Shown here piece by piece: positions 1 through 15,113 of a DNA stretch of 64,000 nucleotides. This DNA comes from Diphasiastrum complanatum. Its lineage: Eukaryota > Streptophyta > Lycopodiopsida > Lycopodiales > Lycopodiaceae. Position numbers and translations under genes: made by a program. The notes below the pieces were generated by a model. The model was not told the origin of the DNA and made no database searches. It worked only from the letters and a program-made list of their open reading frames with translations. The stretch lies in NCBI GenBank assembly GCA_029204225.1, contig CM055099.1, forward strand, positions 60,641,449 to 60,705,448. The letters run 5' to 3'. Position 1 is the stretch's first letter; the number at the start of each line of letters is the position of its first letter.

Positions 1-582
1 GAAAAATCTCATTGGCAAGCAAGAGCAGCATTTCATAAAAGTACACAACATGGCGGGACTAGCACCAAAAATAACTATATACTGCAACTTTTCCAATGGT
101 TTTACAGAAGAATCCAAATTCGTCATAATACAAAATTGATGAATTATAAAAAATTTCAAAAAGCATGCAAATTTATACAAGCCAGTAGGCTATAGACACA
201 CAATAAAATTTTGCATATTAGATGAAAATATTTACAAATTACAATTCAGCAGTATCTAATCTGCTTTCGATATTTTTTCCAATGAAAGTTGCAACTTGAA
301 TCATGCAACAATTTTTTTCTTTCGTATGGATCCAATAGCTCATAGTTTTCATACTTACTTAGATCAACATAAGCAGCATACACTGAGATGATCTGAGCAT
401 GGAATTCACTGGTCCATATCCTAAAATTTTAACCGCAATAGTTTTTTTTACAAAAATTATTTCATGCACCTTATTATGTCCTCCAAGAAAATGAGACAGT
501 GCCTTAATCGCCATAATCATAGTTTCACCATGTTGATGAAACTTTGAATGGGCAACACTTATCTCATTATTCTTGAAGGACT
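1..582. other. AT-rich left edge, no gene recognised
   Basis: This stretch lies downstream of the minus-strand gene that starts near position 1642. It is AT-rich with no coding pattern I can support. It probably holds the 3' untranslated part of that gene and flanking DNA. Confidence 0.4.
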
Positions 583-1642
583 TCAGATAGTGCCCCAATG
601 CATGATCTCTTGAAAATTCTCCAACAGAAGATCTCTGCCCTCCTCGACGAATTGCGAAATCATCGAGAAAAATTGTTTCCTAAAATGATAAAAAACAAAG
701 TAAACTCCAGTATATAAACTGACGTTGGTGAATAGACAGTTGGCTGTGGAGAACCAAGTTGACTTTGGATTCTAAGAAACTCCTCCTCAGAAGGTAGATC
801 ATCTTCTTTCTTGCGCATTTCCTCCACAGCCATTTTCAAGCAATCTTTCCCTGAATAAAACTTATCATTATATACATCGTCAACACCAGGGAGAAGATCA
901 TTAACATCAAAATCAATTATATTCAAAAATTCATCTAGATCTTTGCCAAAATGCAAAGACTCTCAGCTTCAGTGAAGCCAAAAAGATCCGATATATCCGA
1001 TATTGTCAAAAAGGTTATTATCTATATTATAAGTAGGCAAGGTGATCAAAGATTTATCAGAAGGAGAAAGAGTAGTGGGGGTTCTAGGGCCTACAAATGT
1101 AGCCGTATTTCGAGTAGGATCAAAATTAGAACAATCATCTAAACTAACACTCGTATCAATAAAAAAAGTATCTATATCTACAATCTTTGACTTTTCAGAC
1201 TTTGTACCACTAGAAGAAGCTGCTTCAAAAGTGGAGGGAACAGCCTCCGAATCGTCAGAAATATTTAGCAAAAGAAAAAAACAAAAACAGACTGAAAATC
1301 AACAAATCTACATTTCTTATTATGAATTGGGCACTCATCTACAGACTTGAAATCATTATGTAACTTGGTAAACATTCTGTCAATCTTAGCTTGATAGATA
1401 TGCTTGTCGAGTGCCACCAGGTCCTGATAATGAATCATGTCCTTATTCTGAGATCTGAATAAGAGAGTACTGAGCAGGGACTTATATCTGAGATATATCT
1501 CAGAAAATGCCTCCACACCAGGGCCCTTAGGTTTAGAAGGTAGAATAAAAAGAAAATGAGAAAAAAGAGATTTGAAATACTCCAACCTATCAATAATACC
1601 AAATTCATGAAAAAAAGAAAGCAAACTAAATTCAAAACTAGA
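583..1642 (-). pseudogene. Acidic protein of unknown family, divergent partner of the H3/C48 gene
   Basis: I do not recognise this gene. Reading leftward, a first block (about 1642-1320, starting MSSFEF) is rich in hydrophobic and aromatic residues. A second block (about 1265-970) is rich in Ser, Asp and Glu. A third (about 957-724) is strongly acidic and helical in character (KMAVEEMRKKEDDLPSEEEF). A good splice donor follows at 723-722 (GTCAGT) and an acceptor at 681-680. The last exon then reads on in phase to a TGA at 583-585 and adds a short amphipathic tail. Blocks one and two are in different frames without a convincing intron. Blocks two and three need a one-base shift near 960-1000. 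I therefore treat this as a decayed or mis-read gene. It is transcribed away from the histone-like gene and shares its upstream region, so the two may have been one unit. Confidence 0.4.
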
Positions 1643-1679
1643 CATATTAAACAAAAACAACAGAACTAATATTTTAAAT

Positions 1680-2500
1680 ATCGCTCTCAGGCATAAAACC
1701 CAGATCAGGCAAGCACATCAAGGCAACGTGCGCTCGAGAGAGATATTTCAAGTTGGAGTATCGGATCCGAGCGCAAGAACAAAGAGCAAAAAAAAAAAGA
1801 GATGCAAAGCACGCTTGAATGCGATATCGGATGATGCAGTATCAGATCCAGACGCAAAATAGTCAATGAAGGATAATGAGAGCAAGCGGCGCGCTTGAAA
1901 TCGATATCCGGCAAAGTAGTTGTAAATTTGCGTGAAAATCCGAGCCGAAGAAGACCTATTTATAAAAAAAAAAACTCGCACGTGTGGATTAGTAGCGACG
2001 GAACACTTGTTGACTTGTGATTGGTCAAAATAATTGCGCCGTACCTAGAATGATTGATCTGACATCTGTCACGTGCGAGAATGACACGCGTCGAGAGCGC
2101 ATTCGCGCACGTGTCTCAGCCCACGTGGCCTAATAATAGGGTCATCATTGTTAGTATGGACAGTCCACATGGGCTGATAATATATCGACACATGTCCTCG
2201 TCGTCTTTTCACACGTGCAAAAATTTCGTATACATAAGTCCTCAGAAATTTCATCTTTTTTTGCAAAATTTTCGCTTTTAGCTCCCAATATCGCTCTCAA
2301 GCACGCTCTTTCACCGTTCTAGATTTTGCCCTCTCACAGTGCGCTCGAGTCCGATACCGCTGGTATTCCAATATCGCTTTTGAGCGCGCATCTCGTCCAT
2401 AAAATAATCTCTGTAGATCTTGCGCTCAAAACTGATATTAAGTTCTGGTATCGATCTCTAGCGCCCTTTCATTGCAAAATTTTTTGTTTTCATCCACTTT
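1680..2500. promoter_or_regulatory. Bidirectional intergenic promoter region with inverted repeats and G-boxes
   Basis: The region separates two divergently oriented genes. It contains at least four CACGTG or near-identical G-box cores (about 1979, 2070, 2108, 2122, with another at 2212). TATA-like elements are found at about 1955-1962 (TATTTATA, suited to the minus gene) and about 2229 (TATACATAAG, suited to the plus gene). Copies of a GCGCTCRA...GATAT...GTATCGGA...GAGCGC motif lie at about 1727-1775, 1808-1860 and 1887-1910. The same motif in inverted orientation lies at about 2287-2305, 2340-2390 and 2424-2465, giving a roughly two-fold symmetric arrangement centred near 2100. The promoter role is inferred from position and motifs. 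Confidence 0.5.
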
Positions 2501-2549
2501 TCTTTTGTTCGATTTTTTTTTTTTTGTTTATTTTTTTCCTCTGAGTATG

Positions 2550-2924
2550 ATGGCTAGGACCAAATCCATTGCCCATGCCATAACCACTGTACAGCCATCC
2601 CATTCACGTGTTCCTCTTGGTACTAGCCGTAGGCATGGCAGGAAGCAGGTCTGGCTGAGGGAGATAAGAAAACTCCAGAGATCAACTGAATTGTTGATCC
2701 CTAGAGCTCGAGCTCCTTTCAGCCGATCTATACGGAATGTCACTCTGTCACTTGGGCTGGATGTTCGTTTTGCCGTGACAGCCATGCAGGGTGCTGCAAA
2801 AGATTTTTTATCCTAGTTTTTTGAGGATTCGTGTCTTTTGGCAGTGCATGGTAAGCGTGTCACCATCATGCCGAAGGATTTTGTCATTCTCAAAAGGCTT
2901 CGGGACAGATATTTTGGTCTGCAT
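2550..2924 (+). other. Histone H3-like fold domain with mixed canonical and CENH3-like features
   Basis: The domain keeps the H3 start MARTK but loses the standard lysine-rich tail spacing. Core matches are LREIRK, STELLI, KDFL, FFED and KRVTIMPKD. The residues after STELLI (a Pro) and the KDF before the last helix recall centromeric H3 variants. KRVTIMPKD itself is closer to canonical H3. No intron interrupts the domain, unlike plant CENH3 genes, which usually have several. A TAG at 2814-2816 replaces the residue two positions before the FFED motif. The strand continues in the same frame after it, so this is a single point lesion, a read-through site or a sequencing error. Confidence 0.8.
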
Positions 2925-4652
2925 GTTGATAATGCCAGCACCTCCAGAGACCTGCCTCTGGATAGAACCGATTTGCCTACTACCTCTAGGAGGAAGAGAA
3001 AGCAGCCTGTCCCCAAGAAGGCTGGATCTCGTAGGCCAGCTGCTTCCCTTCCTCCTAGAGTTATCCCGGCCAAGAGATCTCGTGTCTTCTTGAGCTCTGA
3101 GTCAGATGCTGGAGAATCTGACTCAAATCGAGAATCTTCACCCCTTCCTCCATCTGTTATTCGTCCAGCTCCTCAGCATGTTTCATCACCAAAAGTGTTG
3201 ATTACCCAAGAGGAGCTAGACAAAATAAGAGAGAAATATGTAAATATTGTTTCCACTTCTGTTTCCACTCCTGTACATAATCTTTTTGTGAGAATTCCAT
3301 ACGATCCAGCCCAAGTTTTTTTTTATTCTGACCATTATAATCCATACGAGGCCTACCTAGCTAACAAAATTGATTTTCTTGGCAACGTTTTTGATTTTTT
3401 TTCTTCCACATACACGTAGAAGCTTTAGATTAGGTCTCAAATTTTGTGCCAAGCTAAAAGATAAGACTTCAAAAGTTTCAGATGCAATAGTAGAGGCCGG
3501 AGTTTCTTTTTTGCAGAATAGTATTAGTTTCGATTCCCATGGTACAATTTTTATAGTTAGTCCATTTTTCATGGAAGCGGTAAAGGCGAAAGAAGCCAAT
3601 TTTGAGAAGGCTGTCTATTTTATCGAGTGTAGTCCTATGGTGAAATTCTATTTGATTCCATATGAAAATAAGTAAGGATTGCTCTTTTGTTTTTGTTGCT
3701 TTAATCTGGATTGTTGCATGCCTCATTGCTTTAATAAGAACGGAATTTTTTCATAAATATGAATTTATCGATATTTGTATCTTGGTTGTTGTAGTCGGCA
3801 TTGGAGCCTAAACATTCTTTTTGTAAAGATAAATAAGGAGGGAGTATCAAATTTTCTAGGTGTAAAATTAAACTCAACTGCAAATACACATAGAGAATTT
3901 GAATCTCTACTTCATGATGCCGTTCGAGAAATACCGACAACGGCAACTTCAATTGGAGATATAACCATTAAATCTCTCAAAGTATATTCAATTTATTTCT
4001 GATATGCATGTATTCAATTTTTAATCCAAATGTATTGTCATAGCATAAATAAAATTTCTATCATAATATTACTAATTTTCGTTCTATATATGCAGTGTGT
4101 ACAACAAAATGACGCTTTTAGTTGTGCATGGTTCGTCTTGTACAATACGAAACTATTTTTTGAATGGTATAATTACAAACGGATGTTGATATTGAAAAGG
4201 TAATATTCTATTCATTTGTAGTTCATTTCATTCTGATTCATATTTTATTACTATCATTGTTTGTAATTTGCTGATTCTCGTGTTTTGTGATGACAGTTCA
4301 TTCTTGAGACGTATACTCCTGATGATGTATATAGATTTCAGCAAGAGTTGATCAGAACCTTTGCCCAGTACGGTGTAAGTGTTGCACCTGCAATCGAGGG
4401 CCCTCAAAGGAAGCTGCTCCTGCCTTAACAGCCTTTCAGGTTGTTCAGGATGTAGATCTTATTTTATATGATCAAAAAGGAATAAAAGTCCTTCCTAATA
4501 CAGAGGAAGGCAATTTTGTAGCAGCTATTCCTCTTGCCTTAAATGGCATTGAGGCCCTTCTCGAAACAGAGGAGGGCAAGATTATAGAAGGAGTTGTTGC
4601 CTTATCAGTTCCTAATACTGATATAGACAATATAGAAAAATTGATTGAATAG
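2550..4652 (+). pseudogene. Histone H3-like domain fused to a C48 (Ulp1-type) cysteine protease, interrupted
   Basis: Exons as read: 2550-3671, 3795-3981, 4096-4199 and 4297-4652. Exon 1 begins MARTK like histone H3 and carries H3 core motifs LREIRK, STELLI and KRVTIMPKD, so the whole histone fold is represented (about 105 residues). A linker of about 150 residues follows, with basic nuclear-localisation-like patches (RRKRKQ, PAKRSR) and Ser-rich acidic stretches. The protease region follows: exons 1 and 2 join in phase to give RHWSL (catalytic His), then an LNS motif at the Asp/Asn position. Exon 3 gives QQND and SCAWF (oxyanion Gln and catalytic Cys). Donors and acceptors of introns 1 and 2 are canonical and phase-consistent. 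Damage: an in-frame TAG at 2814-2816 inside the histone domain, a one-base shift in the T-run near 3391-3398, a phase mismatch at the third junction and a one-base shift near 4405. C48 enzymes cleave SUMO-like or viral precursor proteins; the substrate here is unknown. Confidence 0.72.
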
Positions 4653-4687
4653 AGGATGGGACCGCCACCAATTTTGGTGGGGAATAC

Positions 4688-4924
4688 TGTTGGAGGGTTT
4701 GCCGATATCAAGGCAATTAGATTATTCATTTATCAGAAGGTAATAAGTGAGAGGGATTTTGCACCCTATGTGTGTAATGTTCATTTCAATATGAGCAGGT
4801 CAAACCTCGATCAAATTGGAATTGGATGTCCTTGCTCTTCTATCTTGCTTCATCTCTCATGCTTTATTTGGATTTTGATGTTGCTTGGTTTTGCTAATTG
4901 TTGGAATTGATCCTTGTTATACTT

Positions 4925-5022
<98 letters not shown>

Positions 5023-5210
5023 AAGCTTGATCTTTGGTTGAGTAATATTTTGGATCGTAGTGTTAATTTTGAAATCATAATCATGTGTATGAATCTGAAC
5101 TATGCTATCGCTCTCATGGGAACGAATCTCCGCGTGACACCTTAATCTTCTTCATCCTTTGATGCTTGATTGTGCTAGGATCTAGGGTTGAAGGTGGATA
5201 GGAAATACTC
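4688..5210 (+). repeat. Left inverted LTR-like arm
   Basis: The arm starts TGTTGGAGGGTTTGC and is matched, on the opposite strand, by 6070-6894. Shared blocks include the start, an AATAAGTGAGAGGGATTT block, TGTTCATTTC, ATGTCCTTGCTC, CATCTCTCATGCTTT, a (GA)n tract and TATCGCTCTCATGGGAACGA. Compared with the right arm it lacks about 290 bp between the GTGTGTAA and TGTTCATT blocks. An apparent ORF at 4656-4910 runs into this arm and is not a gene. Confidence 0.6.
4930..5019. repeat. (GA)n microsatellite, about 90 bp
   Basis: Uninterrupted GA dinucleotide tract lying inside the left LTR-like arm. The matching inverted arm carries its own tract at the homologous place, so the microsatellite seed belongs to the repeat family. 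Confidence 0.97.
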
Positions 5211-6069
5211 GCTTCATATTCAATGGTCTATCACCCTTCAGGGTGGAAAGCCATGAGGTAACTCAAACAAAGTCTACACTATCTCTACACTTATGGCAAA
5301 GTATTTTAGTAGTAGTGTTTTCAAAATATAAGACTTCACAATGAGGCATATAGGTTAACTTTCCGTCATAATGGGAGTTCCATGATAGTAATTGGGTGGT
5401 GATATAAAGGATGTTGACACCATTGGCATGCTTTGTGGTATCAGCATATAAGCTCTATTTTTTTTGAAATGGTAGATGTGGTTGCTAGGGCACAAGTAAA
5501 ATGTGGAGAATCAACAAGATTGTAGGCTCATAGACCACTAGGCCTCCTATGTGATAGTGACATGTGTCTCTGTTGTATCCTTGCTAGGGTGGATTAGATA
5601 CTTATGTGAAACTACCTTTTCCCTTCATCCATGTGGCACTCAGAACATATAACTTGGCCTAGAATTTTCCTCTAAACATGGAGGAGTAAACACTTGTTAA
5701 AGCAACTAAAAAAATGCTGATTAGCACCAATGCATTTTCAAGATGATGAATTGCAATTGAGAATATGCTATAGAGATGCTCAAATTGAGCATTGTCGATG
5801 AGATGCATGCCACAATGTGCTTTCTAGCACGCCTCAAGCTTGGATTGACATTCAAGCACAACAACGAACTCTTGAAGGATCAAGTGGCATAGAAAGAAAA
5901 CGCCTTTAAGACCAAGAGGAGCCTTGTGGGTGACATGCATGCCACAATATGCTTTCGAGCACACCTCAAGCTTGGATTGACATTCAAGCGCAACAACCAA
6001 ACCAACTTGCATAAAAAGAAAATGCCTTTAAGCCCAAGAGGAGTAATTTTTAGTGACTAGTGTAGTGGG
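5211..6069. other. Spacer between inverted arms with an internal tandem duplication
   Basis: No gene recognised. A block of about 110-130 bp occurs twice with a period of 132 bp, beginning GCATGCCACAAT at 5805 and again at 5937. Both copies contain CTCAAGCTTGGATTGACATT. The rest is unannotated. Confidence 0.5.
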
Positions 6070-6894
<825 letters not shown>

Positions 6895-7426
6895 CTAGCC
6901 TCTAGGAAAGACAACAAGCATGCAGACACCCTCGCATGCTTGAATCTCGCCATGTCCAAAAGTTAGTCCATCTTTCAAATTTGAGTTCGTTCACAATGCC
7001 ACATGGAAAATTCTATAACAACTAACTAGCCTTTCCTTCTACAAGACCGGTGCTATTGTAATTAGTTGATTGGTGACCCTTTATTACTATGAAATGGTGA
7101 GCATGTGGCCATGGTCCAATACCCACTAGAAATTACTTGTTAAGGGGATTTTGGGTAAAAGCATATGAGATTGTTACATAGTGGATTCCTACCCTATAAG
7201 ATAAGCCAATGTTTTTTTTAATTCTAAGCTAATATGCTACATCATGTGTCATTGCACACTTACATTAATACATGTGATTTTTCTTACAATTCAACATCTT
7301 TTTCATGTAGCTTTAAATCATTGATTAACAGTTTTAAAGCCCAAACCAAGTCAAAGAATGCCAATTCATCCCATGCCCAATTCCACTTGGTTTCATTGCA
7401 TTTTATGGCCTCACTTTTCACTCTTG

Positions 7427-9854: not shown

Positions 9855-10774
9855 TGTTGTAAAGCTGACTTGGGTGCACCCAGCGTGCCCTGTAAGACTC
9901 AAAGGGGTGACACTCCCTAAGGTCCCAGAGCAAGTTAGAATGTCAAGGACTGAGCCTCCGACCTGTGGTGAGCCAGTCAAGTAGTCACAAAGTCATGAGC
10001 TAGCTCTGGAGCTCGAGTCATGGCCTAGTCAGGAAAGCAGGTTGATTCGGCCGCCGGGACGGCTCCCGGGACCCATGTCCGGGAGCCAGACTGATTCTGC
10101 CAGGCTTGCCAGGCTTAATCAGCAAAATAAAAACTAAGTCCTAAAAAGCGTGCTTTACCAGAAAGCACTATGTTTCAAACCAGAGGGGGTGCGCCGAATC
10201 ACAGCAGAACTATAGGGGGAGTCCGGCAGACAGAAACTTGGGCGGCTCAACCAGCGCCAGGAATCCAGTCGCCAGGTCTCAGCTCCCTCTACCAGCACGA
10301 GCCAGGCACAATGCCCAGCACGTGTTGGTGGCCCCGAGACCGGTCAGTCTATGTATGAATGTAACCTCTTCCAAATCTAATAAAGTTGATCCTTGGGGAT
10401 GATTACCATTTCGGTTTCGCCTCCGGGACTGGTCCAAGTGGAAGGACCCTTACTACAACCTTTTTGCGTCGCTGGCGCCTAAGGGTCCCTGTCATCGACA
10501 TGGGGCTTGCCGCTATGCCAATTGGTCAGTTTGGCGACCACTATGCCTTGGGTTTCATGTGTGGCTTGTCTTTGCCTTTGGTTACCTTTTGGGGACGGAT
10601 TCTGAGTTGGCTTTCGGGTTGGTTGGGATTCCAGTTTTCTTAAGTCTGAATGGTTAAGCTTGTTACGATTCTGAGTTGGCTTTTACGTAAGTGCGAGATG
10701 GATGAATGTTAGACTTAAGCGCGTGTTGGGGAAACCGCTCAAGTCCCAGCGCCCTTTGAGGCGCCGGCGCAACA
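9855..10774 (+). repeat. 5' LTR of the gypsy-type element
   Basis: Starts TGTTG and ends CAACA, the usual short inverted termini. It contains an AATAAAAACTAAG polyadenylation-like signal near 10125 and an AATAAAG near 10379. Small frames within it occur identically in the 3' LTR and are not genes. Confidence 0.95.
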
Positions 10775-10776
10775 TG

Positions 10777-10788
10777 TGGTATCAGAGC
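10777..10788 (+). other. Primer-binding site, initiator tRNA-Met type
   Basis: TGGTATCAGAGC lies two bases after the 5' LTR and is complementary to the 3' end of plant initiator tRNA-Met, the standard primer for this class. Confidence 0.93.
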
Positions 10789-10863
10789 CGACTAGCCGGT
10801 CAGCTACGCAAGTCTCACAGGGATGGCCACGTTTTTGGGATTTGTCAGGACAACCGTTGCGCA

Positions 10864-11255
10864 AGGTGCTGCCCACAGTGTAAGCACGGGTGCGTCCACG
10901 GTCGGGGTGGTCGGCAGAACGGGGGACTTGATGAGTCAAAGTGCTGCCCTCGAGGTGTAAGCACGGTCAGTTCTCGCGGTTCGGGCCTGGCGCTGTCTGC
11001 ACGTAGGACGGATGAGGCAAAGTGCTGCCTAGGTAGGTGAAAGCACGGTCTGTACCTTGTGGGGTGCGGGGCGACATATTCGAACTGTACGGGTTAACCA
11101 TTGATACAGAGATGCTGCTCGAATTCGGGTGTAAAGCACGGGTGGTTAGCTGCCGGTGCGGGATAGCTGCCGATCGTTTAGCTATAAGGGCTATCGACCA
11201 AAAAGTGGTGGGGCGTGACTGAGGCAATGTGCTGCTTAATGGTGAAAGCACGGAT
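10864..11255 (+). repeat. Five spaced hairpin repeats in the retrotransposon leader
   Basis: The pattern (R)TGCTGC ... GTRAAGCACGG occurs five times. The stem is GTGCT (or ATGCT) pairing with AGCAC: 10866/10883, 10941/10960, 11022/11042, 11112/11135 and 11229/11247. Loops are 12-18 bases and spacing is 75-117 bases. The region between the primer site and gag is where packaging and dimerisation signals sit in retroelements. That role is inferred. Confidence 0.75.
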
Positions 11256-11607
11256 GGTTGGATGGATGTTTCCCCGTGGGCTAATTCTGTGATAGATTTG
11301 TGTGGGCGCGGCTAGGCAAAGGTCCTACGTCCGGTCTCAGGGGGGGTTTGTGGCTTGAGAGGGATCCTCTATGTTTGCTTTGGTTGGTATGTTCCGTTTG
11401 TCGTGTGCTTGCTTGGACACAAATGACCTGGTTCCTACTTGGCTCTCAGGTGATGTGGGCGTGCTAAGTTTGAGGAAGGGATATTTTCATTGAAGCTGAT
11501 TTAATAAAGAAGAAAAGAGAGCTGTGGGGCCCGGCTGACAGAAGGGAGAGCTTCAAATATAAAAAGGATTGAGGCGATAATCTGTTGGAAGTACACCTCT
11601 GACTATA

Positions 11608-13821
11608 ATGGAGGACCATCTTGAAGAGTTACGAGCACTGACGGACGGAGAAGAGCTGACTCGAGAATACAGCTCTCGCATGCATCGAGATGGCACCAGG
11701 TCCAAGTCGAGAAAGAAAGAGCGTATGCACTCCACAGTGGCGCCCCTCCATGAAGAGATGGGTGGCCCTTCTGAACCTACACCAAGAGATGAACCCTTGC
11801 CAGAGGCACAACAGGACCTCTTTGAAGTGAAGATGCGGCAATACTTATCAAGCGCAATGACGGCTATGCTTAGCGAGGTGAAGAAGGATAGAGAAACCGA
11901 AAGGAAAGAATGGCAAACATCCTTGCGAGCCATGAATCTTACCCAAATTAACCTTGCTAGAGAAATGAGAGACGGGCTAACACAGCTCGAAGCCAGGTTT
12001 GAAGAGTTGGAAGCAACTAGGGAGAATGCAGTGGCGCCTCCTCCACAGATACCAAGAGAACCACGAGCGCGAACCACGGAGGGCCCAAGAAAGACTGCCA
12101 AAGTGAAAGCACCACCTACTTTCAAAGGAGAGCGTGATATTCGAGTTGTGGAAGATTGGTTGTTTCACATGGACCATTACTTCCGTCTAATGAACACTCC
12201 TGAGGAAGAAAGAACTGACTTGGCATTAGCATATTTTGAGGGCTACACTACAAATTGGTACCGGATGGCAGGAATGCATTTTCAAACATGGGACGCATTC
12301 AAAGCCGCGTTACGAGAGGAGTTCATACCGAAGGATTCACACATGAGATTGAGGACAGAATTATCGGGGCTCAAACAGAAAGGGTCATTGCGAGAGTACC
12401 TCAATAGATTCAGACAGAGTGTATGGGTTATTGAAGATATGTCCGAGGCGGACAAAACTCATTACCTATTGTCTGGAATGCAATCCTGGACCCGACGTGC
12501 GATAGACAGCTACATGCCCCATGATTTCAATTCAACTATTCGAGCGGCTGAAATGGTTTGTGATTATGAGAGCACATTGGCACCAGCTGCTCCCGCAACC
12601 TCAACAAGAGTATTTAGTGGATCCAGACCGAGTCCGAGCTTCTTTTCAAGAGGGGACTCAGCTCCAAATGGCAACCAAGCCTCGAGTAGCGTGAATAAAT
12701 TCCCAACAAAAACAGGGTTTGGCAACCAAGGCAACAATGGAGGGAACATGTTCCAGAGAAGAAACAATGTTGGATCTTCGACTAGTCACAGCAACAGCTC
12801 ACCAACAGTGGGCAGTTCCATGCGTTGCTTCAACTGTCATCAGCAAGGTCACTCTTGGAGATCATGCCCCAAACCATTGAATAAGCAAATCATGGCTGCC
12901 ATTGAAGGATTTGATAGGATGGAGAGAGAGGCATTTGATCAAGAAGATGGTGAACAAGATGATGAAGAGGACCCAGAAACGGATTTGACGGAGTCTGACC
13001 TGAATGCCTTGCAACAGATAGGGGCACTTGCGGCTTATCGTGAACATCTTATGGCGACTCCTGCGAGAGGATCCAAGTTATTGTACCTGAAAGGCTGTAT
13101 TCAAGGCAGGATCATTTACTTCATGGTAGACCTGGGGGCGTCTCATAACTACTTGTCAGAAAAACTGACAGGAGAATTGGACATCCAATGTGAAGAAAAT
13201 GTGACTCCTATTTGTGTGGAGACCGCGAAAGGTACAATGACCACTTGTAGATTGGCAACCAACTTACCAATCTCTCTGGGAGCCTGGAAGAATCGACTAA
13301 CGTTCACAATCTTGAAGATGGATGCCTTCGACGCTATTTTGGGATTAAGTTGGTTTAACGAACATGTGGTGGCCTTCTTGGCAAAAGGGGTTAACCTTGT
13401 GTTATTATATAATGGCAGGAGACCTTGTGTCGTCAGAGCTGTGCCAGGGGACCAACTAGAAAAGAACGACACAAATGAACCTGAGCCAACCATTCCTCCC
13501 AATCTCATTCACCTATTTAACGAAGGACAACCAACAGTGACAGACCAGCTGGCACGGGAACAAATGGAGCCAAAATTGCCTATAGTCTCTACACCAAAGG
13601 TGAATTCAAGTGCCGATGCAGAGCTCAAGGAGCTCACCTTGTGTGACCAAGCGAAAACTCATCTTCTTAATGAAAGACATCCAACAGTGACAAACCAGTT
13701 GACGCGAGGTCAAATGGAGCCAACATTGCCTGCAGTTTCTACGTCAAAGGTGAATCTAAGTGCCGATGCAGAGCTCAAGGAGCTCAACCTGGACGACCAA
13801 ACGAAATATCTAAAGTCCTAG
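11608..13821 (+). CDS. Gag-aspartic protease polyprotein of the gypsy-type element
   Basis: This 737-residue ORF is intact. A coiled, charged N-terminal part (to about residue 170) precedes a retrotransposon-gag domain at about 175-320 (VEDWLFHMDHYF, REEFIP, LREYLNRFRQ). A Ser/Asn/Gly-rich stretch follows, then a CCHC zinc knuckle CFNCHQQGHSWRSC at about 407-420. A retropepsin-like region has the active-site motif VDLGASHNYLS near residue 506 and ILGLSWF near 576. The usual DSG or DTG triad reads DLG, which may impair catalysis. The C-terminal 100 residues are two copies of a 50-residue repeat (150-bp period from 13510 and 13660). The protein should form the particle core and bind RNA; enzymes must come in trans. 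Start chosen at the first ATG of the open frame. Confidence 0.9.
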   Translation: MEDHLEELRALTDGEELTREYSSRMHRDGTRSKSRKKERMHSTVAPLHEEMGGPSEPTPRDEPLPEAQQDLFEVKMRQYLSSAMTAMLSEVKKDRETERKEWQTSLRAMNLTQINLAREMRDGLTQLEARFEELEATRENAVAPPPQIPREPRARTTEGPRKTAKVKAPPTFKGERDIRVVEDWLFHMDHYFRLMNTPEEERTDLALAYFEGYTTNWYRMAGMHFQTWDAFKAALREEFIPKDSHMRLRTELSGLKQKGSLREYLNRFRQSVWVIEDMSEADKTHYLLSGMQSWTRRAIDSYMPHDFNSTIRAAEMVCDYESTLAPAAPATSTRVFSGSRPSPSFFSRGDSAPNGNQASSSVNKFPTKTGFGNQGNNGGNMFQRRNNVGSSTSHSNSSPTVGSSMRCFNCHQQGHSWRSCPKPLNKQIMAAIEGFDRMEREAFDQEDGEQDDEEDPETDLTESDLNALQQIGALAAYREHLMATPARGSKLLYLKGCIQGRIIYFMVDLGASHNYLSEKLTGELDIQCEENVTPICVETAKGTMTTCRLATNLPISLGAWKNRLTFTILKMDAFDAILGLSWFNEHVVAFLAKGVNLVLLYNGRRPCVVRAVPGDQLEKNDTNEPEPTIPPNLIHLFNEGQPTVTDQLAREQMEPKLPIVSTPKVNSSADAELKELTLCDQAKTHLLNERHPTVTNQLTRGQMEPTLPAVSTSKVNLSADAELKELNLDDQTKYLKS

Positions 13822-14188
13822 GGGACTCATCCAGATGTGCGACCACAACGACATATCTGAGGCTTAAGGGAGCCGTGAGTACCTTTTTCTTTCATGCTAA
13901 TAAAGTAAGCCGCATTTCTCATTGAGGAGTGAGCTTCAGTTTGATGTCTAAGTGCAGCAGCTTCACACAGGTTTTACGTAAGTGAACTAGATCCACACTT
14001 TTCCTGTGCTGGGTGTAAAACACAATATCATTACTCTGCTTTACAGTTGGTTTTCTTTGGCCGGTGAATCAAGCCCGTGCCCTTGTATATGTGACTAAAG
14101 TCTGGCCGGTGAATTAAGCCCGTGCCATGAGTCTTAGGTTCTAGTTTGGCCCTGATGAGGACATCAGCTTTCTCAAACGAGGGGAGGA
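13822..14188 (+). other. Short 3' non-coding segment and polypurine tract of the element
   Basis: Between the gag-protease stop and the 3' LTR lie 367 bp without polymerase motifs. A GGCCGGTGAATYAAGCCCGTGCC block occurs twice (about 14059 and 14104). The segment ends in the purine run GAGGGGAGGA next to the LTR, the plus-strand priming site. Confidence 0.85.
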
Positions 14189-15108
14189 TGTTGTAAAGCT
14201 GACTTGGGTGCACCCAGCGTGCCCTGTAAGACTCAAAGGGGTGACACTCCCTAAGGTCCCAGAGCAAGTTAGAATGTCAAGGACTGAGCCTCCGACCTGT
14301 GGTGAGCCAGTCAAGTAGTCACAAAGTCATGAGCTAGCTCTGGAGCTCGAGTCATGGCCTAGTCAGGAAAGCAGGTTGATTCGGCCGCCGGGACGGCTCC
14401 CGGGACCCATGTCCGGGAGCCAGACTGATTCTGCCAGGCTTGCCAGGCTTAATCAGCAAAATAAAAACTAAGTCCTAAAAAGCGTGCTTTACCAGAAAGC
14501 ACTATGTTTCAAACCAGAGGGGGTGCGCCGAATCACAGCAGAACTATAGGGGGAGTCCGGCAGACAGAAACTTGGGCGGCTCAACCAGCGCCAGGAATCC
14601 AGTCGCCAGGTCTCAGCTCCCTCTACCAGCACGAGCCAGGCACAATGCCCAGCACGTGTTGGTGGCCCCGAGACCGGTCAGTCTATGTATGAATGTAACC
14701 TCTTCCAAATCTAATAAAGTTGATCCTTGGGGATGATTACCATTTCGGTTTCGCCTCCGGGACTGGTCCAAGTGGAAGGACCCTTACTACAACCTTTTTG
14801 CGTCGCTGGCGCCTAAGGGTCCCTGTCATCGACATGGGGCTTGCCGCTATGCCAATTGGTCAGTTTGGCGACCACTATGCCTTGGGTTTCATGTGTGGCT
14901 TGTCTTTGCCTTTGGTTACCTTTTGGGGACGGATTCTGAGTTGGCTTTCGGGTTGGTTGGGATTCCAGTTTTCTTAAGTCTGAATGGTTAAGCTTGTTAC
15001 GATTCTGAGTTGGCTTTTACGTAAGTGCGAGATGGATGAATGTTAGACTTAAGCGCGTGTTGGGGAAACCGCTCAAGTCCCAGCGCCCTTTGAGGCGCCG
15101 GCGCAACA
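14189..15108 (+). repeat. 3' LTR of the gypsy-type element
   Basis: The same length as the 5' LTR and with no difference seen by eye, including identical small reading frames. It ends CAACA and is followed by GGTAC. Confidence 0.95.
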
Positions 15109-15113
15109 GGTAC
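15109..15113. repeat. Right target-site duplication GGTAC
   Basis: Matches 9850-9854. Removing the element and one duplication restores GGCCGTACGGTACGGCC, an odd-length palindromic site. Confidence 0.93.

Follow-up and report, generated by a model that had tools for sequence, protein, structure and literature searches.

A histone H3-like domain joined to a probable C48-type protease region in a high-copy, unclassified transposon of Diphasiastrum complanatum

Positions 2547-4652 (forward strand) of the window, by which we mean the whole 64,000-nucleotide stretch of D. complanatum DNA analysed here, carry what reads as a decayed four-exon gene for an H3-like histone domain, a basic linker and a C48-type (Ulp1-like) protease region. 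Judged from the sequences of its copies, the fusion gene is real, mobile and present in high copy number, and the plant transposon that carries it is unclassified. The interpretation that we favour, with some reserve, is that the window holds a decayed copy of an element of ~9.9 kb that is free of target-site duplications (TSDs), and that the single H3-linker-C48 protein of this element would hold a protease on chromatin to counter silencing.

Structure and copies of the fusion gene

Exon 1 (2547-3671) encodes the H3-like tail, the histone fold, the basic linker and the start of the protease region. The initial annotation placed the start of the gene at 2550; an ATG is present there, but the frame opens earlier, with its first ATG at 2547 and the one at 2550 as its second. 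The H3-like domain (2592-2894; residues 16-116 of the frame) leads in the same frame into a basic Ser/Pro-rich linker (2919-3188, as delimited by tblastn in L001, the window copy) and a frameshift follows, as had been described. This frameshift lies in a T-run near 3391-3400, beyond which the other frame reaches the donor at 3671; the exon is also interrupted by a TAG at 2814-2816. Exon 2 (3795-3981) encodes RHWSL, at the position of the catalytic His, and an Asn at the position of the Asp, and splicing restores the frame at the YEN|N RHWSL junction, in agreement with the first reading. Exon 3 (4096-4199) encodes QQNDAFSC (Gln, and the position of the catalytic Cys) and carries a frameshift near its end, and exon 4 (4297-4652) carries another and ends at a stop, giving one stop and three frameshifts in total. 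The frameshift that had been noted is borne out, but the two in exons 3 and 4 were absent from the initial annotation. All four exons lie on the forward strand, as do the three introns: intron 1 (3672-3794; GT in 14 and AG in 16 of 19 loci), which falls within the C48 profile match, intron 2 (3982-4095; GT 14/19, AG 13/19) and intron 3 (4200-4296; GT 13/19, AG 12/19). The first two had been placed correctly, whereas the third was missing. These counts are from 19 aligned loci, rearranged ones included, so that GT or AG is kept in 12-16 of 19 loci at each of the six sites.

The fusion gene is part of a high-copy repeat. A search with the H3 part of the window's own genome assembly (1.74 Gb, 5,176 contigs) gave 4,925 candidates, of which the best 150 were scored; the best listed matches are 88-91% identical, with the window copy and its duplicate set aside. 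Twenty stretches of 10 kb and twenty loci of 3.3 kb were fetched, representing 32 distinct places after removal of eight overlaps. Some of these are near-identical duplicates (L040 and the window copy, separated by 155 kb; L027 and L029; L024 and L025), and the independent events therefore number fewer than 32. The H3 gene of the window (C8:60642498-60645761) is nearly identical to C8:60797231-60800494, 155 kb downstream, with shared flanks, and this pair reflects either a segmental duplication of recent date or a sequence duplicated in the assembly. Thirteen copies were aligned from the twenty 10-kb loci, leaving out seven that are rearranged or duplicate, although L029, the duplicate of L027, is still included; removal of L029, L022 and L031 gives the ten-copy set (alignment A1) used for dN/dS.

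Both protease exons lie 3' of the H3 exon, in the same order, in 23 of the 32 distinct copies, and at least one of them is present in 27; exon 2 alone was identified in three copies, exon 3 alone in one, and neither in five. Among nine copies in which exon 1 was fully read, three (L024, L026 and L027) have it open from the H3 start via the linker to the donor. When seven spliced copies were scanned, six matched C48; the match begins before the junction of exons 1 and 2 in five of the six, and in all six it ends in or just beyond exon 3. That most C48 matches cross intron 1, together with the open exon 1 of some copies, argues that the histone and protease parts were once one gene, and since the lesions vary among copies, an intact ancestor of ~590 codons is implied. 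The proposal that the modules had formed a single gene is thereby upheld at the level of the family. A search for further copies, which the initial annotation had suggested for related genomes, recovered the same domain order within the genome itself; in each of the 13 aligned copies at least one of the four exons is damaged. The alternative of two separate genes lying side by side, or of a family of host H3 variants with no transposon fusion gene, is very improbable: the window copy by itself is too damaged to decide, but other copies have a continuous exon 1 and a restored splice phase, and the inverted termini and clean empty sites described below already contradict it.

The histone and protease regions

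The histone assignment is secure on profile evidence. The window frame, with the TAG given as X, matches PF00125 with an E-value of 4.6e-19, which confirms the H3-like frame first read there, and L027, with its open exon 1, matches with 2.5e-23; a chance H3-like ORF is ruled out by these values. The PDB chains closest to the window frame are CENP-A and H3 (~3e-19). Copies without indels align over the length of H3 without gaps; the canonical H3 of the host has the majority residue of the 13 copies at 46 of 86 sites (positions 46-131), and the copies L027 and L037 are 45-47% identical to it. The tail starts as ARTKSTAR and is followed by a complete histone fold. When the tail was compared with H3 at K4, K9 and K27, K4 was found in 13/13 copies and Ala at position 9 in 13/13; in 12/13 the stretch from K4 to the fold contains no further Lys. 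The DNA and H3-H3' contact residues are largely kept (H113 in 12, D123 in 13, R49, R69 and R72 in 11 each, and R83 in 10 of the 13 copies), while R63 is replaced by Pro in 12/13 and C110 by Leu in 13/13.

In a tree that also included the host H3 and reference rows of H3 and CENH3 (two plant CENH3 rows among them), the family forms a branch of its own, with a stem of 0.79 changes per site, and grouping with either H3 or CENH3 is unsupported. A search of the genome with CENH3 and H3 did not identify the host's own CENH3. The family resembles CENH3/CENP-A in LLIPxAPF, which we take to be a plant CENH3 pattern, and, like CENP-A, has a Trp that precedes LxEIRKLQ; it differs in its MPKD and in a loop 1 of H3 length. 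An origin from CENH3 was dropped on the basis of the tree, which places the domain without a supported CENH3 grouping, and of loop 1, both relative to these CENH3 rows. These features also bear on the alternative that the H3 part steers the integration or the transposase to a type of chromatin, such as centromeric chromatin, with the protease maturing the protein or clearing the target. This is consistent with the CENH3-like LLIPRAPF and Pro63 (12/13) and with a side match of L027 to Pfam CENP-T_C (1.1e-6), but the same tree and loop 1 argue against it, as do the four insertion sites read, which have no sequence in common, and we consider it doubtful.

A second dispersed H3-like sequence was identified in the same genome, and two of its places were read (L068, in the region of C17:36125866-36126120, and L069, in the region of C156:47837-48091). 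It has a Pro-rich N part and a C-terminal histone fold (PF00125 E=2.3e-29 when the Pro run is excluded), and well over 100 places of this type, 44-57% identical to the query and with open frames of up to 440 aa, are among the matches listed. It shares with the window family a Trp in alphaN, Pro63 and HGK; the tree does not group the two.

The region from the C-terminal part of exon 1 to exon 3 is probably a C48 protease, as judged from a recurrent profile match. Peptidase_C48 (PF02902) matches eight of ten spliced copies at E<=1 (best 1.8e-4; window copy 0.0098), with no match in the other two. It is the sole recurring Pfam family among the ten copies, three other families matching one copy each, and its match spans profile positions 84-197 with the parts in the right order. 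The profile search bears out the C48 assignment of the initial annotation in part: the individually scored copies (the best copy not among them) reach 12.9-19.7 bits against a Pfam cut-off of 20.7, and L037 is unmatched. The C48 order that had been read from RHWSL, a downstream Asn and QQND...SC likewise stands in part: the His is kept in 12/13 copies, the Cys in 12/13, and a Gln six residues before the Cys in 13/13, but an Asn, invariant in 10 aligned rows, occupies the place of the catalytic Asp of C48. A PDB search with a profile of ten copies gave no C48 structure, and hhalign against SENP1 was not significant. It is from these two results, the sub-threshold individual scores and the Asp-to-Asn replacement that one could argue that the domain is unrelated to C48 and that its HW and Gln-Cys motifs arose by chance; given that C48 alone recurs, in the right order, and that His, Gln and Cys are so widely kept, we regard this as improbable.

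The carrier element and its insertion

A complete copy of the element (C577:70113-80032) is 9,920 bp long and has inverted termini, CATTAGAG..., of ~31 bp and ~81% identity. Each terminus is followed by a GC-rich hairpin (z of -3.7, with 0/200 shuffles as good, and of -2.9, with 2/200). Terminus and hairpin positions were also recorded at L041:4714 and L027:8633. Comparison of copies showed that several have sharply defined ends on both the left and the right, and searches with 120 bp of each end gave 1,383 candidates for the left and 1,514 for the right, the best 40 of each being scored. The element encodes a left gene of several exons, a middle gene on the opposite strand and the H3-C48 gene, in that order, and possibly a short right gene.

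The portion of the element within the window covers 1-4654 on the forward strand (blastn to C577:70113-80032: 92% identity over 1-723 and 91% over 724-4654). The window copy is without both termini, its right end being cut off at 4654, and a Copia-like insertion is present in the left part of the element just outside the window (seen in L039; rve E=7.6e-6). The 3' end of the left gene, a candidate transposase, lies at ~1-256 on the forward strand, co-linear with the left gene of L027. A search with the left gene gave 8,958 candidates, the best 150 of which were scored; it matches no Pfam family above cut-off and nothing in the PDB, and encodes a WHLAGDLK...GANSKHPCLYC pattern that may resemble that of transposase-like proteins of animals. 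The middle gene (~259-1667, reverse strand) is represented by ORF pieces at 359-679, 660-962, 969-1298 and 1265-1717; its ORFs in other copies are of 224-287 aa, and it has no Pfam match above cut-off. Between the middle gene and the divergent H3-C48 gene, the intergenic region (1668-2546) contains repeated TATCGCTCTCA-like words, read by eye. In C266:83360-85781 and C2015:32461-34882 the distance from the left gene to the right terminus is ~2.4 kb, and both are apparently deletion derivatives without the H3-C48 gene.

Two further repeats were observed in the window. Positions 4655-6900 hold a large inverted repeat, imperfect (70% between the arms at 4823-5205 and at 6079-6515) and with (GA)n/(CT)n runs, that begins exactly where the element homology ends and looks like a foldback element. 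Positions 9855-15111 hold two 923-bp direct repeats, 99.9% identical, of the form TGTTG...CAACA, with GGTAC flanking the pair at either outer end and TGGTATCAG following the first repeat, and look like a very young LTR element.

A TSD is present at none of the four insertions with both ends read. For L031, 40 of 40 scored genome places span the junction of the empty site with no change in length. The matches there run from query base 83/84 to 296-300, and the outermost 83 bases of the left flank are unmatched. This copy interrupts a Copia-like integrase gene; when its flanks are joined, they form one frame of 74 residues (rve E=4.6e-5, under the Pfam cut-off). For L027, 40 of 40 scored places again span the junction; in 25 of them the length is unchanged, and in the other 15 it differs by 1-4 bases. 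The two empty-site tests indicate that the element inserts without duplication or deletion, and they rule out a TSD hidden by age. The target dinucleotides at the four sites are A|A, T|C, T|T and C|A, with no common sequence. The initial annotation had offered a mobile or selfish chromatin-targeting protein as one possibility; of this, a dispersed family with inverted termini and clean empty sites substantiates the mobility at the level of the family, although the window copy itself is without termini.

Assignment to known element classes was unsuccessful. An LTR element was rejected, no direct repeats having been found in the complete copy, and so was a viral origin, for which no relative was confirmed in the two of eight parts of a viral contig collection that were scanned. 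The 8-bp TSD of hAT is absent in both empty-site tests, and no hAT domain is present in the scanned ORFs of the decayed copies. The MULE/VANDAL elements produce TSDs of 9-11 bp; the empty-site tests likewise revealed none, and a mudrA-type domain is absent from the scanned ORFs. CACTA elements have 3-bp TSDs, and were rejected on the termini, which are CATTAGAG instead, on the absence of a TSD and on the absence of tnp2 from the scanned ORFs. Helitrons have TC...CTRR ends and an A|T target; here the termini are inverted, the targets are those listed above, and no Rep/helicase was identified in the scanned ORFs. The absence of a TSD fits Spy, but its AAATTT target is absent at four of four sites. 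No transposase was recognised in the ORFs scanned, which are those of decayed copies, either in Pfam above cut-off or in the PDB. The element may thus represent an unclassified group, possibly new as a class.

Selection and the possible role of the fusion protein

Among the ten copies, pairwise dN/dS comes to 0.42 (H3 part), 0.81 (linker), 0.61 (C-terminal part of exon 1), 0.49 (exons 2-3) and 1.20 (exon 4). The corresponding wrong-frame values are 0.66/0.69 (H3 part), 0.52/0.90 (linker), 0.43/0.63 (C-terminal part of exon 1) and 0.51/0.82 (exons 2-3). The H3 part is the sole region with a signal, lying below both wrong frames (codon bootstrap 0.28-0.59), whereas the linker and the C-terminal part of exon 1 each exceed one wrong frame (0.52 and 0.43, respectively). 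The protease part had been expected to show strong purifying selection, but the wrong-frame comparison did not bear this out, the value for exons 2-3 being about equal to the lower of its wrong-frame values. Outside the histone part, these codon comparisons would point to selection only weakly. The introns diverge between copies by 0.078-0.085 and exons 1-3 by 0.065-0.103, and it follows that most of the divergence seen is neutral. Past function is better argued from a domain that is only 45-47% identical to H3 and yet still open and complete in some copies.

These data bear most directly on the alternative that the element picked up an H3 gene and a protease gene and multiplied them as passengers without a role, as proposed for fungal hAT elements. 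Capture of H3 by transposons is documented (PMC6710886, available text), the equal divergence of introns and exons and the weak dN/dS outside the H3 part are what a passenger would leave, and an apparent deletion derivative (left gene at C266:83360, right end at C266:85781, ~2.4 kb) dispenses with the H3 gene. However, the histone is highly divergent from that of the host, on its stem of 0.79, with exon 1 nevertheless open in some copies; this counts against a passenger, as a recent one would resemble H3 and an old one would be full of stops. The H3-part dN/dS, under both wrong frames, also argues against it, and we regard a passenger as unlikely.

For the favoured interpretation, of a protein that acts on chromatin, we infer every step beyond the histone fold. 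The H3 part would pair with H4 and enter nucleosomes or travel with histone chaperones, and the histone fold would thereby hold the protease on chromatin, where the C48 enzyme could strip SUMO or a similar modifier off silencing proteins. Because the K4-bearing tail is without Lys9, the nucleosomes formed with it would be unable to bear the marks normally used in silencing. Taken together, these steps would keep the element expressed. A more far-reaching version, in which a plant transposon class, possibly a new superfamily, makes a "silencing-proof" H3 variant (with K4, and no K9 or other tail Lys) with a built-in deSUMOylase, is speculative, and we would not expect it to hold in full.

The nearest published parallel for the histone part is in the hAT transposons of Dothideomycete fungi, with a captured H3, a length of ~9.5 kb and hundreds of copies (784 in P. 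fijiensis), for which the source of the H3 was a transcript or a retrocopy; copies are RIP-dead in most species, with many potentially active in P. tritici-repentis, and the elements have a hAT domain and, where ends were found, a TSD (8 bp in C. zeae-maydis) (all from the available text of PMC6710886). The D. complanatum element is likewise a large DNA transposon with inverted termini and H3-derived sequence. Unlike the fungal elements as described there, it is a plant element without a TSD and with no hAT domain found, and its H3 is divergent and fused to a protease-like domain; the word "protease" occurs 0 times in that available text. For the protease part, plant KI-MULE and CACTA-ULP transposons carry Ulp1/C48 domains (PMC2528002), and the present family is similar in being a plant DNA transposon with a C48 domain; it differs in its histone fold, none being mentioned in the available text of that source, in its low C48 scores, and in that MULE/CACTA termini and TSD types were not found in it. 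VANDAL21 is comparable in its working only, as a plant DNA transposon with extra genes, one of them anti-silencing: besides the transposase it encodes VANB and VANC, and VANC removes silencing (PMC5735166, PMC10398659), acting via sequence-specific DNA binding (PMC5735166), according to the available portions of both sources. The Spy transposons (PHIS superfamily), as described in the available text of PMC4482050, are DNA transposons that also produce no TSD, but insert within AAATTT, which is not the case at the four sites of the window family, and no DDE domain was recognised in the latter. Other counter-silencing tools known from transposons are SET methyltransferases and TET/JBP enzymes (PMC12730594, available text). 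Both H3 capture, in fungal hAT elements, and plant transposons with C48 domains are already published; searches of an open-licence library listed no fusion of histone and protease in a transposon, in line with the initial annotation, which knew of no C48 transposon with a histone fold.

If the favoured interpretation is correct, a transposon histone variant tied to a protease would give the element a direct hold on nucleosomes, and would represent a natural tool for placing an enzyme on chromatin. It would allow one to ask whether an H3 without Lys9 shields a locus from silencing, and could help to explain the very high copy number of the element in D. complanatum.
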